In this document: piece by piece, positions 41,090 to 46,360 of the stretch
How the letters are laid out: each line of letters begins with the position of its first letter
Position numbering within the stretch: position 1 is the first letter of the stretch
Origin: Robiginitalea myxolifaciens
Lineage (GTDB): Bacteria > Bacteroidota > Bacteroidia > Flavobacteriales > Flavobacteriaceae
Direction: 5' to 3'
Length of the DNA: 64,000 bases
NCBI RefSeq assembly: GCF_900115205.1
Contig: NZ_FOYQ01000001.1
Span: 1,019,240 to 1,083,239, forward strand
Translations under genes and position numbers: made by a program
The notes under the pieces: generated by a model
Told to the model about the DNA's origin: nothing
Databases searched by the model: none
Seen by the model: the letters and a program-made list of their open reading frames with translations, nothing else

Positions 41090-42841
41090 ATGTATCGATC
41101 GCACACTTGTGGAGCATTACGAGAGAGCCATATCGGCCAGGAAGTAACCCTGGCAGGTTGGGTACAGAAAACCCGGGATAAAGGATTCGTGGTTTGGGTA
41201 GACCTCCGGGACCGCTATGGGATAACCCAGCTGGTCTTTGACCAGGATCGCACTTCCGCCGAACTTTTGGAGCAAGCCCGGGAATTGGGTCGGGAATTTG
41301 TGGTTCAGGCCAAAGGCGAAGTAATTGAGCGTGCTTCCCAAAACCCCAACCTACCCACAGGTGCTATTGAACTCCTGGTTCGCGAACTCAAGGTGCTCAA
41401 CCCTGCGGCCACCCCTCCTTTTACCATTGAGGAGGAGACCGATGGCGGGGAAGAATTGCGCATGAAGTACCGCTATTTGGATATTCGCCGTAACCCGGTA
41501 AAAGAAAAATTATTATTCCGGGCAAAAGTTGCCCTGGAGGTTCGCAACTACCTGAGCCAGCAAGGTTTCGTAGAAGTTGAAACGCCCTATCTGATCAAGT
41601 CTACGCCGGAAGGTGCCCGCGACTTCGTGGTGCCCAGCCGCATGAATGCCGGGCAGTTTTATGCGCTGCCCCAATCCCCCCAGACATTTAAGCAGCTGCT
41701 TATGGTAGGAGGAATGGACAAGTATTTTCAAATCGTAAAATGCTTCCGCGACGAAGACCTGCGCGCCGACCGCCAGCCCGAATTTACCCAGATCGATTGC
41801 GAAATGGCCTTTGTGGAACAGGAAGATGTGCTGCAGGCTTTTGAAGGCCTGACCCGTCACCTGATCAAAACTATCCACGGCACCGATCCGGGAGAGTTTC
41901 CCAGGATGACTTATGATGAAGCCGTAAAACGCTTTGGGTCCGATAAGCCGGATATCCGTTTTGGAATGGAATTCGGGGAACTCAACGACATCGCGCAGCA
42001 CAAAGAATTCAATGTCTTTAACAACGCTGAGCTGGTAGTTGGAATTGCTGTCCCTGGAGCAGCATCCTATACCCGAAAGGAAATTGATGCCCTGGTAGAT
42101 TGGGTAAAGCGACCCCAGGTAGGTGCTGGAGGCATGGTCTATGTAAAATGCAATGAGGACGGGACCTTCAAATCCTCTGTGGATAAGTTCTACGACGCCG
42201 ATGATTTGGCGAATTGGGCCGAACGCACCGGGGCAAAAGCCGGAGATCTCATCTGTATCCTGTCTGGCCCTACCAACCCAACCCGCAACCAGCTCAATAT
42301 GCTGCGCATGGAATTAGCCGGACGCCTGGGCCTGAGAAAATCTGACGAATTCGCCCCGCTGTGGGTGGTAGATTTCCCCTTATTGGAATTCGACGAAGAA
42401 TCCGGTCGCTACCACGCCATGCACCACCCGTTTACCGCCCCGAAACCCGGACAGCTCGAATTGCTGGATTCGGACCCGGGTGCAGTACGCGCCAACGCCT
42501 ATGATTTGGTGCTTAATGGGAATGAAATCGGGGGAGGCTCCATCCGTATTCACGATAAAGACATGCAAGCCACCATGTTCCGCCATCTTGGATTTACCAA
42601 GGAAGAAGCCCGGGAACAATTCGGCTTTTTAATGGATGCTTTCCAATATGGTGCCCCACCTCATGGCGGTATTGCCTTTGGACTGGATCGTCTGGTCGCC
42701 ATCCTCGGTGGGCAGGAATCCATCAGGGATTACATCGCGTTCCCAAAGAACAACAGTGGCCGTGACGTGATGATCGATGCCCCTGCCCGTCTGGATCAGG
42801 ATCAACTTAAAGAACTTAACTTAAAGGTTAATCTCGGTTAA
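41090..42841 (+). CDS. aspS: Aspartyl-tRNA synthetase
   Basis: 583 residues, standard bacterial length. OB-fold anticodon domain (1-105), class II catalytic core with motif 2 [16 protein letters not shown] near 220 and motif 3 G-I-A-F-G-L-D-R-L near 535, and the bacterial GAD insertion (about 290-410). It charges tRNA-Asp. No Asn-tRNA amidotransferase gene is nearby, so discriminating or non-discriminating type cannot be read here. Confidence 0.97.
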
Positions 42842-42965
42842 AGTTCCTAACCTTACTTTACTCAATCTACTTTCAGGTGCGGTGTTGCTCTGGTAAGTAA
42901 CAAGAATCCACTTCTTTAAAGCTAAATAGCGCTGAGCAGACAATTTTCCATAAAAATTTGTTTTA

Positions 42966-42980
42966 GTTAGGATTCCTTAC
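42966..42980. promoter_or_regulatory. MarR-type operator, copy 1
   Basis: GTTAGGATTCCTTAC, a 7-1-7 palindrome with one mismatch, 83 bases before the lipoprotein ATG. A half-site TTCCTAACC is at 42844-42852. Confidence 0.55.
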
Positions 42981-43030
42981 TATAATTGCATTATTATTTG
43001 ACTATCATCTAGAATATTTTAACCCTATTA

Positions 43031-43045
43031 ATTAGGATTCCTAAC
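43031..43045. promoter_or_regulatory. MarR-type operator, copy 2
   Basis: ATTAGGATTCCTAAC, a 6-1-6 perfect core palindrome that ends 17 bases before the lipoprotein ATG, where it would cover the transcription start. Confidence 0.65.
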
Positions 43046-43062
43046 TTTATGAAATTTAAATC

Positions 43063-43788
43063 ATGAAAAACTTACATCAAATTTTCCTGGCCCTGGCCCT
43101 TTCATTTCTGCAAACTTCCTGTGCCCAGGATAATCCTTACAACAACGAGGATTTTGTCATTGAAACCGTAAAAGTAGTTCACCGCACAGATCTTGAGGTA
43201 TTGGTTTGGGAAATCAATGTCCGGGGGAATGCTGGAGAAACCGTTCCCTCGCCCGCAGGTCAATTGGATGGCGCTCCTGTTCTGGGCTATGTCTTCCCAA
43301 CAAGTCTGAGTCCGACAGATGTAGGATTCGGAGCAACAGAAGGTATCGTTGCCCTGGCCCTGACCTCACATCCCGATTTTGACGATACCCCACTCTGGGA
43401 TGAAAACAGTGATCAGAACTATGGGAACGATGGTATAATTTGGCATCCTCATTGGGTGGTTCTCACAGAAGACAAACGAGTGGCCGGGGGACTTTCGGTA
43501 AAGCAGTTTAAAAAAGCAGACCAATCGGTTGTGCTTCCACCCACAAATCCAGGAATGCCCATGTATATGGATTCCCCGGGCTATCCCGTTGCAAGCAAGC
43601 GGCATACTATCCAGGTAGTCGTACCCAAATACCGGATGAACAACAAAACCGCCTTTAATTACGACGGCGTTACCGCCTATATGCAGGTTAATACCTCAAA
43701 CGATCAACTTCCCATGATTGGCGTTTACGCAGTTTTTAGTGTTGCAAGCGGGGATCTTTCGCTTCCCTACGCTGTGAATGAGAAATAA
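43063..43788 (+). CDS. Unknown lipoprotein under MarR control
   Basis: 241 residues. Signal peptide ending Q-T-S-C (C20), then a soluble domain of about 220 residues with no repeats. Notable stretches are N-D-G-I-I-W-H-P-H-W-V-V-L near 125-137 and P-T-N-P-G-M-P-M-Y-M-D-S-P-G-Y-P near 165-180; the histidines and tyrosines could form a binding site. I do not recognise the family. Two palindromes before it match one before the MarR gene that follows after 83 bases, so the regulator probably controls both. Confidence 0.75.
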   Translation: MKNLHQIFLALALSFLQTSCAQDNPYNNEDFVIETVKVVHRTDLEVLVWEINVRGNAGETVPSPAGQLDGAPVLGYVFPTSLSPTDVGFGATEGIVALALTSHPDFDDTPLWDENSDQNYGNDGIIWHPHWVVLTEDKRVAGGLSVKQFKKADQSVVLPPTNPGMPMYMDSPGYPVASKRHTIQVVVPKYRMNNKTAFNYDGVTAYMQVNTSNDQLPMIGVYAVFSVASGDLSLPYAVNEK

Positions 43789-43826
43789 GAAAGTTAAAGA
43801 TGGGCTACCCGATCCCGGCACATTTA

Positions 43827-43841
43827 ATTAGGATTGCTAAC
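43827..43841. promoter_or_regulatory. MarR-type operator, copy 3
   Basis: ATTAGGATTGCTAAC differs from copy 2 in one base. It lies 30 bases before the ATG at 43872 and so supports that start rather than the one at 43800. Confidence 0.6.
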
Positions 43842-43871
43842 TTAGTCCCGTTCAATGAACGGGACTTTGTT

Positions 43872-44477
43872 ATGAAAAGCAGCGCCTTTAATCCCAACAT
43901 GCAAGAAGAAGATCTGGCCAGTAAAATCACCTTTGGCCTGGAGCGGATTTCCGAGGTATTCAAAACCTTACTATGGGCAAAAGCCAAAGTCGTTGGGCTG
44001 AGTCCCATTCAAATACAGATCGGTTTATTCGTAGCCTATCATCGGGCAGAACTTTGCAATGTGAGCCATTTGGCCAAGGAGTTCAATGTCACCAAGCCTA
44101 CAATCAGCGATGCTGTCAAGATCTTGAATAAAAAAGGCCTTATTGATAAAGATTATTCTGCCTCAGACCAGAGGAGCTACACGCTCCAATTGACAGATTC
44201 CGGCAGAAAATTGGTTCGGGAAGTCGGAGATTTTGCCGATCCATTAAGGGATTTAATTGGCCACAAAGATGAGGCGGAGTTAAGCCGTTTCTTCACGACC
44301 CTGAGTGAACTGATCTATAGTCTGAATCGCACAGGCGTATTGACCGTCCAGCGGACTTGTTTCGGATGTAAATTCTATGACAAAGAAAGTGAAGAAGATT
44401 ATTGCAAACTGCTGCAAAAAAAATTGAGCAATTCGGATATTCGCCTGGATTGCCCGGAATTTGAAAACAGGAACTAA
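43872..44477 (+). CDS. MarR family regulator with C-terminal Cys4 motif
   Basis: 201 residues. Winged helix-turn-helix at about 60-115 (N-V-S-H-L-A-K-E-F-N-V-T-K-P-T-I-S and the wing D-Q-R-S-Y-T-L-Q-L-T). After the last dimer helix come C163-x2-C166-x11-C178-x15-C194, enough to hold a zinc ion or an iron-sulfur cluster, so it may sense metal or oxidants. Three near-identical palindromes lie before it and before its neighbour. A longer frame from 43800 would place the operator inside the coding part, so I take the ATG at 43872. Confidence 0.85.
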   Translation: MKSSAFNPNMQEEDLASKITFGLERISEVFKTLLWAKAKVVGLSPIQIQIGLFVAYHRAELCNVSHLAKEFNVTKPTISDAVKILNKKGLIDKDYSASDQRSYTLQLTDSGRKLVREVGDFADPLRDLIGHKDEAELSRFFTTLSELIYSLNRTGVLTVQRTCFGCKFYDKESEEDYCKLLQKKLSNSDIRLDCPEFENRN

Positions 44478-44575
44478 TATTCCAGCCAAGCTGCATTGCA
44501 TTTACATTCTGGTATCCTATTCAAAATTCGCCCGAACGACAATTTTACTTAGCTTTAAGCTAGTTAACCGATCTC

Positions 44576-46360
44576 ATGGCCAAGCCAACCTCCAAAGCCC
44601 TAACCAGGTTTCTAAAATGGCGCTATAAACATATCAGCCACAAGACGTTCATTCAATTAATGAGCGCTGTGATCGGGTTGCTTGCCGGGCTTGCCTCGGT
44701 TACCCTGAAGAATTCCACTTATTTTATTCAATCCCTGCTCGATCGCGGCGTGCTTTTCCTGAGCAAGGAACTCTATTTTATCCTCCCGGTAGTCGGGCTT
44801 ACCCTGGTGTACCTCTATGTAAAATATGTGCACAAGGAGAAGCTGGAACACGCGGTTTCTTCCATCCTGTTTTCCCTATCACGTAAAAAAGGAATCATCG
44901 CTTCAAAACGCATCCTCACCCCTCTGGTTACCGCCCCGCTTACCGTCGGATTCGGGGGTTCCGTGGGGCTTTTAGGACCTGCCGTTGCCAGTGGTGCCGC
45001 AATCAGTTCCAACGTCAGCCGCCTGCTGCATATCGGGGCGCGTGACCGCAACCTGCTCATAGCCTGTGCCTCGGCCGGAGCCATCGCCTCCATATTCCAG
45101 GCACCTATTGCTGCCATTATTTTTGCGGTGGAGGTCTTCAGCCTGGACCTGACGATGCTCTCCATGCTTCCCTTGCTCCTGGCCTCCATTTCCGGGGTCC
45201 TGACTTCTTACTTTTTCCTTGGGGATGAAACCCTTTTCAATTTTGCCCTGAAGGATACCTTTCAGGTAAAAGATAGTTTGTATTACATCCTCCTGGGGGT
45301 GGGAACTGCCTTTGCCTCCGTGTATTTTACGCGGATGTACTTTGGGATCCTCAAACTCTTTAAACCACTCAAAAGTCCCAAATACAGGCTCCTGGTAGGC
45401 GGGCTGGCCATCGGCGGAATGCTATACCTGATACCTCCCTTATACGGGGAAGGTTTTGGTTTTATCAATCACTTGCTCGAGGGAGATCACCGGCAGGCGT
45501 TGGGCGTTACCCCTTTTGACGCCTACGTCGACAATATCTGGGTAGTCATTGCCTTGCTCTCAGGCATCACGCTTTTCAAGGCCATTGCGATGACGACAAC
45601 CTTCGCCGCGGGGGGTGCAGGTGGGATTTTTATCCCCACCATGGTCATGGGTAGTGCCCTGGGCAATGTCTTTGCCAAAGTGTTGAATAACCTGGGCCTG
45701 GGTATTGAAGTCAGTGAATCGAACTTTACCCTGATCGGGATGGCGGGACTGATCTCCGGGGTTATCCATGCCCCGCTCACCGCTATATTCCTGATTGCAG
45801 AGATTACCGGGGGTTATGAGTTGTTTGTGCCCTTGATGATTACGGCGGCCATTTCCTTCCTGATTACTCGGAATACCATGGCCCATACTATATATACCCG
45901 AGAACTCGCCCGAATCGGAGCCCTGATCACCCACAATAAAGATCAGGCGGTACTCACCATGATGGATCTGGACGAGGTAATCGAAACCAATTTCAAAGCG
46001 GTTACCCCGGAGATGACCTTAGGGGACATGTTGCATCAGAGTGTGGCCAAATCGAGCCGAAACCTATTTCCAGTGATCGACAAGGAAGACCGGCTATTGG
46101 GCATTGTGTTGCTGGACGACATACGCGAATTCATGTTCGACATCAATATCTATGACAAAATCCGGGTTGAATCCTTTATGATCCGCCCTCCGGAACAGAT
46201 ATTCTACGGTAGGGATTCGATAAAATCGGTCATGAAAAAATTTCAGGACAGCGGAGCCTGGAACCTCCCTGTAGTCAGGGACGGCCGGTATCACGGCTTT
46301 GTTTCTAAATCCAAACTCCTTACGGCCTACCGTCGGAAGTTGATTACCTTTACCCGCTGA
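44576..46360 (+). CDS. ClC chloride channel/transporter with CBS domains
   Basis: 594 residues: about 440 of ClC membrane core and a C-terminal pair of CBS domains (about 455-510 and 530-590) that may bind adenine nucleotides. Core motifs are G-G-S-V-G-L-L-G-P (127-135) and A-P-I-A-A-I-I-F-A-V-E-V (176-187). At the position of the gating glutamate (E148 of E. coli ClC) stands L133, and at the internal proton glutamate (E203) stands V187. Loss of both suggests a passive anion channel rather than a Cl-/H+ exchanger. It is followed after 19 bases by a small membrane protein. Confidence 0.92.
   Translation: MAKPTSKALTRFLKWRYKHISHKTFIQLMSAVIGLLAGLASVTLKNSTYFIQSLLDRGVLFLSKELYFILPVVGLTLVYLYVKYVHKEKLEHAVSSILFSLSRKKGIIASKRILTPLVTAPLTVGFGGSVGLLGPAVASGAAISSNVSRLLHIGARDRNLLIACASAGAIASIFQAPIAAIIFAVEVFSLDLTMLSMLPLLLASISGVLTSYFFLGDETLFNFALKDTFQVKDSLYYILLGVGTAFASVYFTRMYFGILKLFKPLKSPKYRLLVGGLAIGGMLYLIPPLYGEGFGFINHLLEGDHRQALGVTPFDAYVDNIWVVIALLSGITLFKAIAMTTTFAAGGAGGIFIPTMVMGSALGNVFAKVLNNLGLGIEVSESNFTLIGMAGLISGVIHAPLTAIFLIAEITGGYELFVPLMITAAISFLITRNTMAHTIYTRELARIGALITHNKDQAVLTMMDLDEVIETNFKAVTPEMTLGDMLHQSVAKSSRNLFPVIDKEDRLLGIVLLDDIREFMFDINIYDKIRVESFMIRPPEQIFYGRDSIKSVMKKFQDSGAWNLPVVRDGRYHGFVSKSKLLTAYRRKLITFTR

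Follow-up and report, generated by a model that had tools for sequence, protein, structure and literature searches.

A two-gene locus of Robiginitalea myxolifaciens, lying in a 64,000-nucleotide stretch of contig NZ_FOYQ01000001.1 (the window, whose own numbering is used below), encodes a secreted protein and a MarR family regulator that ends in four cysteines (Cys4-MarR), with three palindromes around them. The palindromes recur as operators in related bacteria, and the bacterial switch that they would form with the regulator is probably an undescribed kind of nitric oxide (NO) or redox sensor. In the best explanation, to which we give an even chance of being right as a whole, Cys4-MarR would be an autoregulated iron-sulfur (Fe-S) repressor that responds to NO or reactive nitrogen and switches on a protective operon. 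What we read directly from the sequences comprises the genes, the operators and their conservation, the contact of an operator with a -7 promoter box, a hairpin, the conservation of the four cysteines, and a link to hemoprotein genes. The features of the locus are as follows.

42837-42851, + strand: degenerate half-site GTTAAAGTTCCTAAC, directly after aspS
42957-42960, + strand: possible -33 box TTTG of what we take to be a Bacteroidetes-type promoter
42966-42980, + strand: operator 1, GTTAGGATTCCTTAC
42981-42988, + strand: -7 promoter box TATAATTG, abutting operator 1
43031-43045, + strand: operator 2, ATTAGGATTCCTAAC
43063-43788, + strand: gene for a secreted or lipid-anchored protein of 241 residues, no assigned family
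43827-43841, + strand: operator 3, ATTAGGATTGCTAAC
43844-43871, + strand: terminator-like hairpin with a T-rich tail, stem AGTCCCGTTC-AAT-GAACGGGACT, directly before the marR start codon
43872-44477, + strand: gene for the Cys4-MarR repressor, 201 residues
44358-44453, + strand: C-x2-C-x11-C-x15-C tail at the C terminus of the regulator

Operators recur at the same genes of a larger operon

All three palindromes lie where an earlier note on this DNA had placed them, and all are of the type TTAGGA-N-TCCTAA. With at most one mismatch, TTAGGATTCCTAA is matched at five places in the 3.2-Mb genome; three are the window operators, within 0.9 kb, and the other two (L017 and L018) fall within open reading frames (ORFs). 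The 15-mer RTTAGGANTCCTWAY occurs at four places, three of them the window operators. The half-site at 42837-42851, which the earlier note had counted as well, carries no weight, because it has three mismatches and at that level the window holds 11 motif matches versus 9.3 expected; it may be due to chance.

To follow the locus in other genomes, we used at least 582 relatives of the secreted protein from a genome scan and kept the best 80, nearly all titled Bacteroidota; since they were ranked by similarity to the secreted protein, close relatives are overrepresented, and some of the loci end at contig ends. The secreted protein is present in 79 of these loci, Cys4-MarR in 76, a gene for a thioredoxin-like protein with a CPVC motif in 72, and a DUF2024 gene in 62. 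The usual order is operator 1, thioredoxin-like gene, operator 2, secreted protein, DUF2024, operator 3, and marR. Sites with at most two mismatches stand at the start of 71 of 72 thioredoxin-like ORFs, 74 of 80 secreted-protein ORFs, and 58 of 77 MarR ORFs; shuffled stretches pass the same test in 7/360, 10/400, and 9/385 cases, respectively. The co-occurrence of palindrome and gene pair in relatives, which the earlier note had named as a check, is borne out in most of the 80 loci.

In the window, operators 1 and 2 are only 65 bp apart, at the place where relatives have the thioredoxin-like gene, and there is no DUF2024 gene. Searches of the rest of the window's genome for these two genes gave no match at E ≤ 0.001, an empty answer that alone proves little. 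Judged by gene content and spacing, the window locus is a reduced form of a four-gene operon with its operators kept. The view of the pair as a complete module is not supported, as most relatives carry two further genes; neither is the view of the secreted protein as the only obvious target, since 72 of the 80 loci add the thioredoxin-like gene and 62 add DUF2024, and other lineages add cytochrome P460, protoglobin, truncated globin, or a redoxin with a CPGC motif. The thioredoxin-like protein has 77 residues and a subthreshold match to Pfam thioredoxin (17.6 versus 24.8 bits); DUF2024 has Pfam support of 5e-28. The cluster can be split: in G038, the thioredoxin-like, secreted-protein, and DUF2024 genes with their operators lie far from marR.

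Among 60 genomes, made up of the window's own and 59 relatives, a close regulator homolog (E < 1e-40) is found in 8 others, the next matches being at 8.6e-7 or weaker, and none of these 8 genomes belongs to the nine congeners examined. The secreted protein is present in 5 of the 60 genomes, all with the regulator. This patchy distribution makes gain or loss within the genus likely. Operators are present in seven of the eight relatives' loci. Eight further operator-like places were examined: five are inside ORFs (L017, L018, L152, L165, and L170), two (L162 and L174) are outside any listed frame, and one (L163) precedes a cytochrome P460 gene.

Two side observations concern this operon. In L041, L044, L048, L055, and others, operator 2 is followed ∼17 to 20 bp further 3′ by a second operator, degenerate or only a half-site, which also forms an inverted repeat in the transcript. 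In L057, L065, L088, L095, L096, L111, and L113, a CPGC redoxin-like gene stands in the cluster before marR; the L057 copy has a subthreshold Redoxin/AhpC match, and L057 also has an AAA ATPase gene, of which L065 has a look-alike.

A promoter box abuts operator 1, and a hairpin precedes the regulator gene

The window's -7 box has one mismatch to TAnnTTTG, which we take to be the Bacteroidetes -7 box consensus. An exact TAnnTTTG lies no more than 3 nt from operator 1 in 68 of 71 relatives (shuffle mean, 0.19), and an operator that abuts the -7 box fits repression. The TTTG of a possible -33 box is found 2 to 9 nt before the operator in 17 of these 71, and sigma-70 type promoters show no excess over shuffles.

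The window hairpin has a 10-bp stem (-16.1 kcal/mol). A hairpin plus T-run follows operator 3 in 50 of 59 sequences, and in 45 of the 50 the start codon comes at most 14 nt further on. The stems vary among loci (GCCTGTC/GACAGGC, GTCCCG/CGGGAC, and GCTAATGAGAAA/TTTCTCATTAGC), so that structure, not sequence, is kept. Two of the 50 stems are weak (L073 and L080), and a looser six-pair test was passed by 109 of 1180 shuffles. There was no Rfam match in 42700-44700. Separately, a small protein without a Pfam match is encoded before marR in three loci (L001:6508-6795, L002:6871-7137, and L106:8924-9193); it is reminiscent of Rof, the Rho-binding antiterminator, a likeness that, if real, would make it a noteworthy neighbor of a terminator hairpin.

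The operator goes with the regulator across genomes

In a phylum set of 395 genomes, the window's own counted, a Cys4 profile matches 29 genomes, one of them (L144) by a doubtful fragment. The secreted protein is found in 14 genomes, cytochrome P460 in 32 (29 over the cutoff), and HTHP in 6. Genomes with Cys4 account for 8 of the 14 with the secreted protein (P = 7e-7, own genome counted) and for 12 of the 32 with P460 (P = 2e-7), these P values ignoring kinship. Operators with at most one mismatch were found in the secreted-protein loci (∼3.7 kb each) of 8/8 Cys4 genomes versus 0/6 others. P460 loci, fetched for 30 of the 32 genomes at up to ∼3.4 kb each, carry the operator in 6/11 Cys4 genomes versus 0/19 others (P = 8e-4). 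Two of the six operator-bearing P460 genes are on contigs other than that of marR, in assemblies of 220 contigs (L195) and 20 contigs (L197). From these loci we conclude that the operator goes with the regulator; that the palindromes accompany Cys4-MarR thus holds across genomes.

Six genomes encode the secreted protein but gave no Cys4 match, and five of them (L182 to L186) are of one family. There, the secreted-protein gene is divergent from a gene that we call LysR-like from its sequence only, and no operator is present; the regulator seems to have been exchanged.

The pair is also found in Proteobacteria. Six pairs, in Phaeobacter, Sinorhizobium, Shinella, Defluviimonas, Pararhizobium, and Vibrio, keep the four cysteines. 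Three of them, on alphaproteobacterial plasmids, have ATAGGA-N-TCCTAT before marR, and Phaeobacter has TAGCGA-C-TCGCTA; a scan for exact palindromes listed none in Defluviimonas and Vibrio. Pattern searches of viral contigs turned up relatives of neither protein.

The regulator is a MarR protein with a near-invariant cysteine tail

The regulator's ORF opens at 43800, which had been taken as its start; the most likely start is the ATG at 43872, because relatives align from there. Operator 3 and the hairpin sit between the two positions, inside the longer frame. Membership in the MarR family follows from Pfam (PF01047, 33.7 bits versus a cutoff of 24.6; MarR_2, 32.6 versus 27) and from the predicted structure (predicted local distance difference test score [pLDDT], 87.9), which matches 109 PDB chains at E ≤ 0.001, the best 50 of the 109 being MarR-like regulators.

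The C-x2-C-x11-C-x15-C motif is present at the end of the protein, as first described, and its conservation, on which that description had been staked, is nearly complete. Among 104 MarR ORFs, 103 have the four cysteines, CxxC first, with the spacing C-x2-C-x10-17-C-x15-C and one C3-C4 outlier. Because 27 of these ORFs were retrieved by means of the Cys4 profile, the cysteines in them are not independent evidence; the other 77, from loci fetched by the secreted protein, are independent, and 76 of them keep all four, the exception being a split frame. The cysteines are also kept in the alignment of the eight relatives and three plasmid members. In the structure model, the tail forms short strands after the last long helix. 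PDB sequence matches of the regulator stop by residue 158 of the 205-residue query, none reaching the tail, and the Cys4 profile matches no PDB sequence at E ≤ 10. Pfam gives no consistent match to the tail (six families, each in 1 of 12 members; best E, 0.017).

Cysteines so nearly invariant make it plausible that the tail serves in metal or Fe-S sensing. The original suggestion of a zinc or Fe-S site that reads metal, redox, or NO survives to that extent, and of the signals it offered, the neighboring genes favor NO or reactive nitrogen. In Flavobacterium covae (L107:9646-10247), marR is in two overlapping frames, a broken gene or a sequencing error, with the four cysteines in the second.

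The secreted protein has three invariant histidines

The secreted protein, as had been suspected, lies outside known families: it has no Pfam or NCBIfam match above the cutoff and no PDB sequence match of note. Members in Hymenobacter, Spirosoma, and Phaeobacter, 41 to 57% identical to the window protein, are called "hypothetical protein." Its description as a lipoprotein is uncertain: the lipobox cysteine column holds Cys in 35 of 54 aligned homologs, and a lipobox-like motif is seen in 25.

His103, His128, and His130 are found in 54/54 aligned Bacteroidota-type members, and so are Met165, Met167, and Met169. An acidic DEN-x-D loop is kept in the 54, two of its positions in 53/54 and 52/54. 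The three histidines are also present in the Phaeobacter and Vibrio members; the methionines are not kept in Phaeobacter. Our guess is that the histidines make up a metal site.

The predicted structure (pLDDT, 88) is an Ig-like sandwich. Foldseek gave no match at E ≤ 0.001 and a list of mostly antibody domains; among PDB sequences, the profile found nothing at E ≤ 10 and the single sequence found only a sialidase (E, 1.2). We considered a relation to the heme subunit of ethylbenzene dehydrogenase (2ivf_C; Foldseek E, 0.065; VIA-align Z, 6.4; root mean square deviation, 4.9; 145 aligned) and did not adopt it: a Z under 8 may reflect only a common arrangement, antibody rows score no lower, and the VIA-align rows, with Z up to 6.6, are background that includes 2ivf_C. 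Damaged copies of the gene also occur, namely, a second, broken one at L115:4848-5512 and one with an internal stop in L123/L179.

Partner genes point to nitric oxide or hydroxylamine

Besides the window's, 29 Cys4 loci (L117 to L145) were inspected within ∼1.5 kb on each side, and 13 have a gene for cytochrome P460 (L136, L138, L140, L142, and L143), protoglobin (L127, L131, L132, L133, and L145), or truncated globin (L122, L126, and L128). Ten of the 13 are above the Pfam cutoff, and L128 and L133 were assigned by resemblance only; in L126 (404-1036), a gene directly before Cys4-MarR joins DUF2024 to a globin-like part that falls just short of the cutoff (20.3 versus 21 bits). In L131 and L132, operator sites precede the protoglobin gene by ∼30 to 55 bp. 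The Hymenobacter operon has HTHP and protoglobin inside and catalase, hmpA, and an Rrf2 regulator nearby. Near the Defluviimonas pair, NnrS, hemerythrin, and a group III globin are encoded within ∼5 kb, and in Shinella, Defluviimonas, and Vibrio, the secreted-protein gene has a CPGC redoxin gene as its neighbor. HTHP is found in L001 and L065 as well, and we considered it as a general member of the regulon; this was rejected, as no site within one mismatch of the operator lies in the fetched HTHP loci of six genomes of the phylum set and co-occurrence with Cys4-MarR is not significant. The partner genes are best explained by NO or hydroxylamine as the signal, catalase and HTHP leaving room for peroxide.

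We propose that a dimeric MarR repressor binds TTAGGA-N-TCCTAA and controls its own gene. Bound to operator 1, against the -7 box, it would block transcription; operators 2 and 3, which are inside the transcription unit, could serve as road blocks or cooperative sites, the former role being speculation. The four C-terminal cysteines would bind a cofactor, an Fe-S cluster being the likeliest candidate, and its reaction with NO or related nitrogen species (hydroxylamine or nitroxyl) would release the operators. This would turn on the protective operon, which in relatives encodes the regulator along with the thioredoxin-like CPVC protein, the His-rich secreted protein, and DUF2024; the hairpin would keep the regulator's level low through low read-through. 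In other lineages the regulon would take in cytochrome P460, globins, or CPGC redoxin, and in the window's genome the operon would have shrunk to two genes, those for the secreted protein and Cys4-MarR. Repression, the cluster, NO as the signal, the effect of the hairpin, and the function of the secreted protein are the proposed parts of this scheme.

Several results weigh against this scheme. It is mostly distant members that supply the NO link. In close relatives, the four-gene operons encode no known NO enzyme and, taken alone, point to no particular signal; the window's own genome has no P460 or HTHP match. Overlap of HTHP with Cys4 genomes is not significant (2/6; P = 0.065, kinship again ignored). 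Catalase in the Hymenobacter and Pararhizobium loci, and HTHP in some loci, fit peroxide as well, and zinc can be bound by four-cysteine tails of such a size. In L028, a close relative, the genes are present without an operator at ≤2 mismatches, operator 3 is missing before 19 of 77 MarR ORFs, and operators 2 and 3 have no adjoining promoter box (TAnnTTTG in 1/74 and 0/58). A generic terminator scan does find the window hairpin, but with 1 found versus 2.1 expected there is no excess.

Some of these points would suit a thiol redox sensor of peroxide, HOCl, or reactive electrophiles, in which the four cysteines bind zinc, thiolate oxidation frees the operators, and the operon repairs thiols and destroys peroxide. 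Such a sensor might control the thioredoxin-like CPVC gene (72 of the 80 loci), the CPGC redoxin that several lineages have, and the catalase and HTHP genes just mentioned, but catalase is in two loci only, the HTHP co-occurrence is not significant, and the recurrent extras beside Cys4-MarR in distant genomes are P460, protoglobin, and truncated globin; we regard this alternative as rather unlikely. Improbable, in our view, is a metal sensor, for example, of copper, zinc, or iron limitation, with the secreted protein as a metal or heme carrier. The invariant histidines and conserved methionines, with the weak structural likeness to 2ivf_C, invite this idea, but the methionines are lost in Phaeobacter, the likeness is in the range of mere common arrangement, and no metal transporter was recognized by eye among the listed neighbor families common to at least four loci, a set that was not scanned. 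That the palindromes belong to another regulator, Cys4-MarR being a passenger, would accommodate the 19 MarR ORFs without a site directly in front and the LysR-like gene of L182 to L186 but is very improbable, as secreted-protein and P460 loci without a Cys4 match have no operator and the operator stands before marR itself, near-identically so on three alphaproteobacterial plasmids.

If the NO-responsive repressor is correct, Bacteroidota gain a specific NO regulator with a readable operator, and the secreted protein, DUF2024, and the CPVC thioredoxin-like protein become tied to nitrogen oxide or redox stress. A broader claim is put forward only tentatively: Cys4-MarR may stand for a new cross-phylum class of NO/hydroxylamine sensors, with an Fe-S cluster in the C-x2-C-x10-17-C-x15-C tail, its own operator, a regulon of P460, globin, CPVC/CPGC redoxin, and DUF2024, a three-His secreted metalloprotein that would handle reactive nitrogen outside the cytoplasm, and an operator-plus-terminator cassette before the regulator gene.

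Comparison with known regulators

Cys4-MarR is probably a MarR repressor that does the job of ArnR or NsrR by means of a sensor tail, an operator, and a regulon peculiar to it, and it probably forms its own MarR subfamily. Within the literature searched, we did not meet this system in print or find a described NO sensor of its type in Bacteroidota.

In Corynebacterium glutamicum, narKGHJI and hmp are repressed by ArnR, a winged-helix protein that responds to NO and carries a [4Fe-4S] cluster; its three conserved cysteines (179, 193, and 223) are separated by 13 and 29 residues and include no CxxC pair, and it is found nearly only in Actinobacteria (PMC12343034). Judged by this published description, the two proteins share a MarR/ArsR-like winged helix, a dimer helix, a small C-terminal Cys tail, and, in the proposed reading, repression of an NO-handling hemoprotein gene. 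Unlike ArnR as described there, Cys4-MarR has four cysteines, CxxC first, occurs in Bacteroidota and Proteobacteria, and has another operon. Membership in ArnR would also call for a [4Fe-4S] cluster whose nitrosylation by NO abolishes DNA binding. ArnR is a precedent for a winged-helix repressor that can read NO through a C-terminal [4Fe-4S] cluster, but since its three-Cys pattern differs, we do not file Cys4-MarR as ArnR.

NsrR, an Fe-S NO repressor of the Rrf2 family (PMC12343034), would resemble Cys4-MarR in the proposed signal and target class (hmp and globins). Cys4-MarR, however, has no Rrf2 domain (PF02082, 14 bits versus a cutoff of 30), and in Hymenobacter the Rrf2 regulator beside hmpA is additional to it.

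Other winged-helix proteins offer a more general likeness. MepR, ST1710, FabT, and other MarR structures have the same fold (Foldseek E, 2e-5 to 3e-4), and their sequence matches do not reach the Cys4 tail. SufR combines a winged helix with a [4Fe-4S] site and regulates suf genes; the likeness extends to both, the cluster being only proposed for Cys4-MarR. No suf genes were noticed beside Cys4-MarR loci, where no dedicated search was made. In the window, a gene for a CLC chloride channel with CBS domains, seen in none of the eight relatives' loci, follows marR at 44576-46360.

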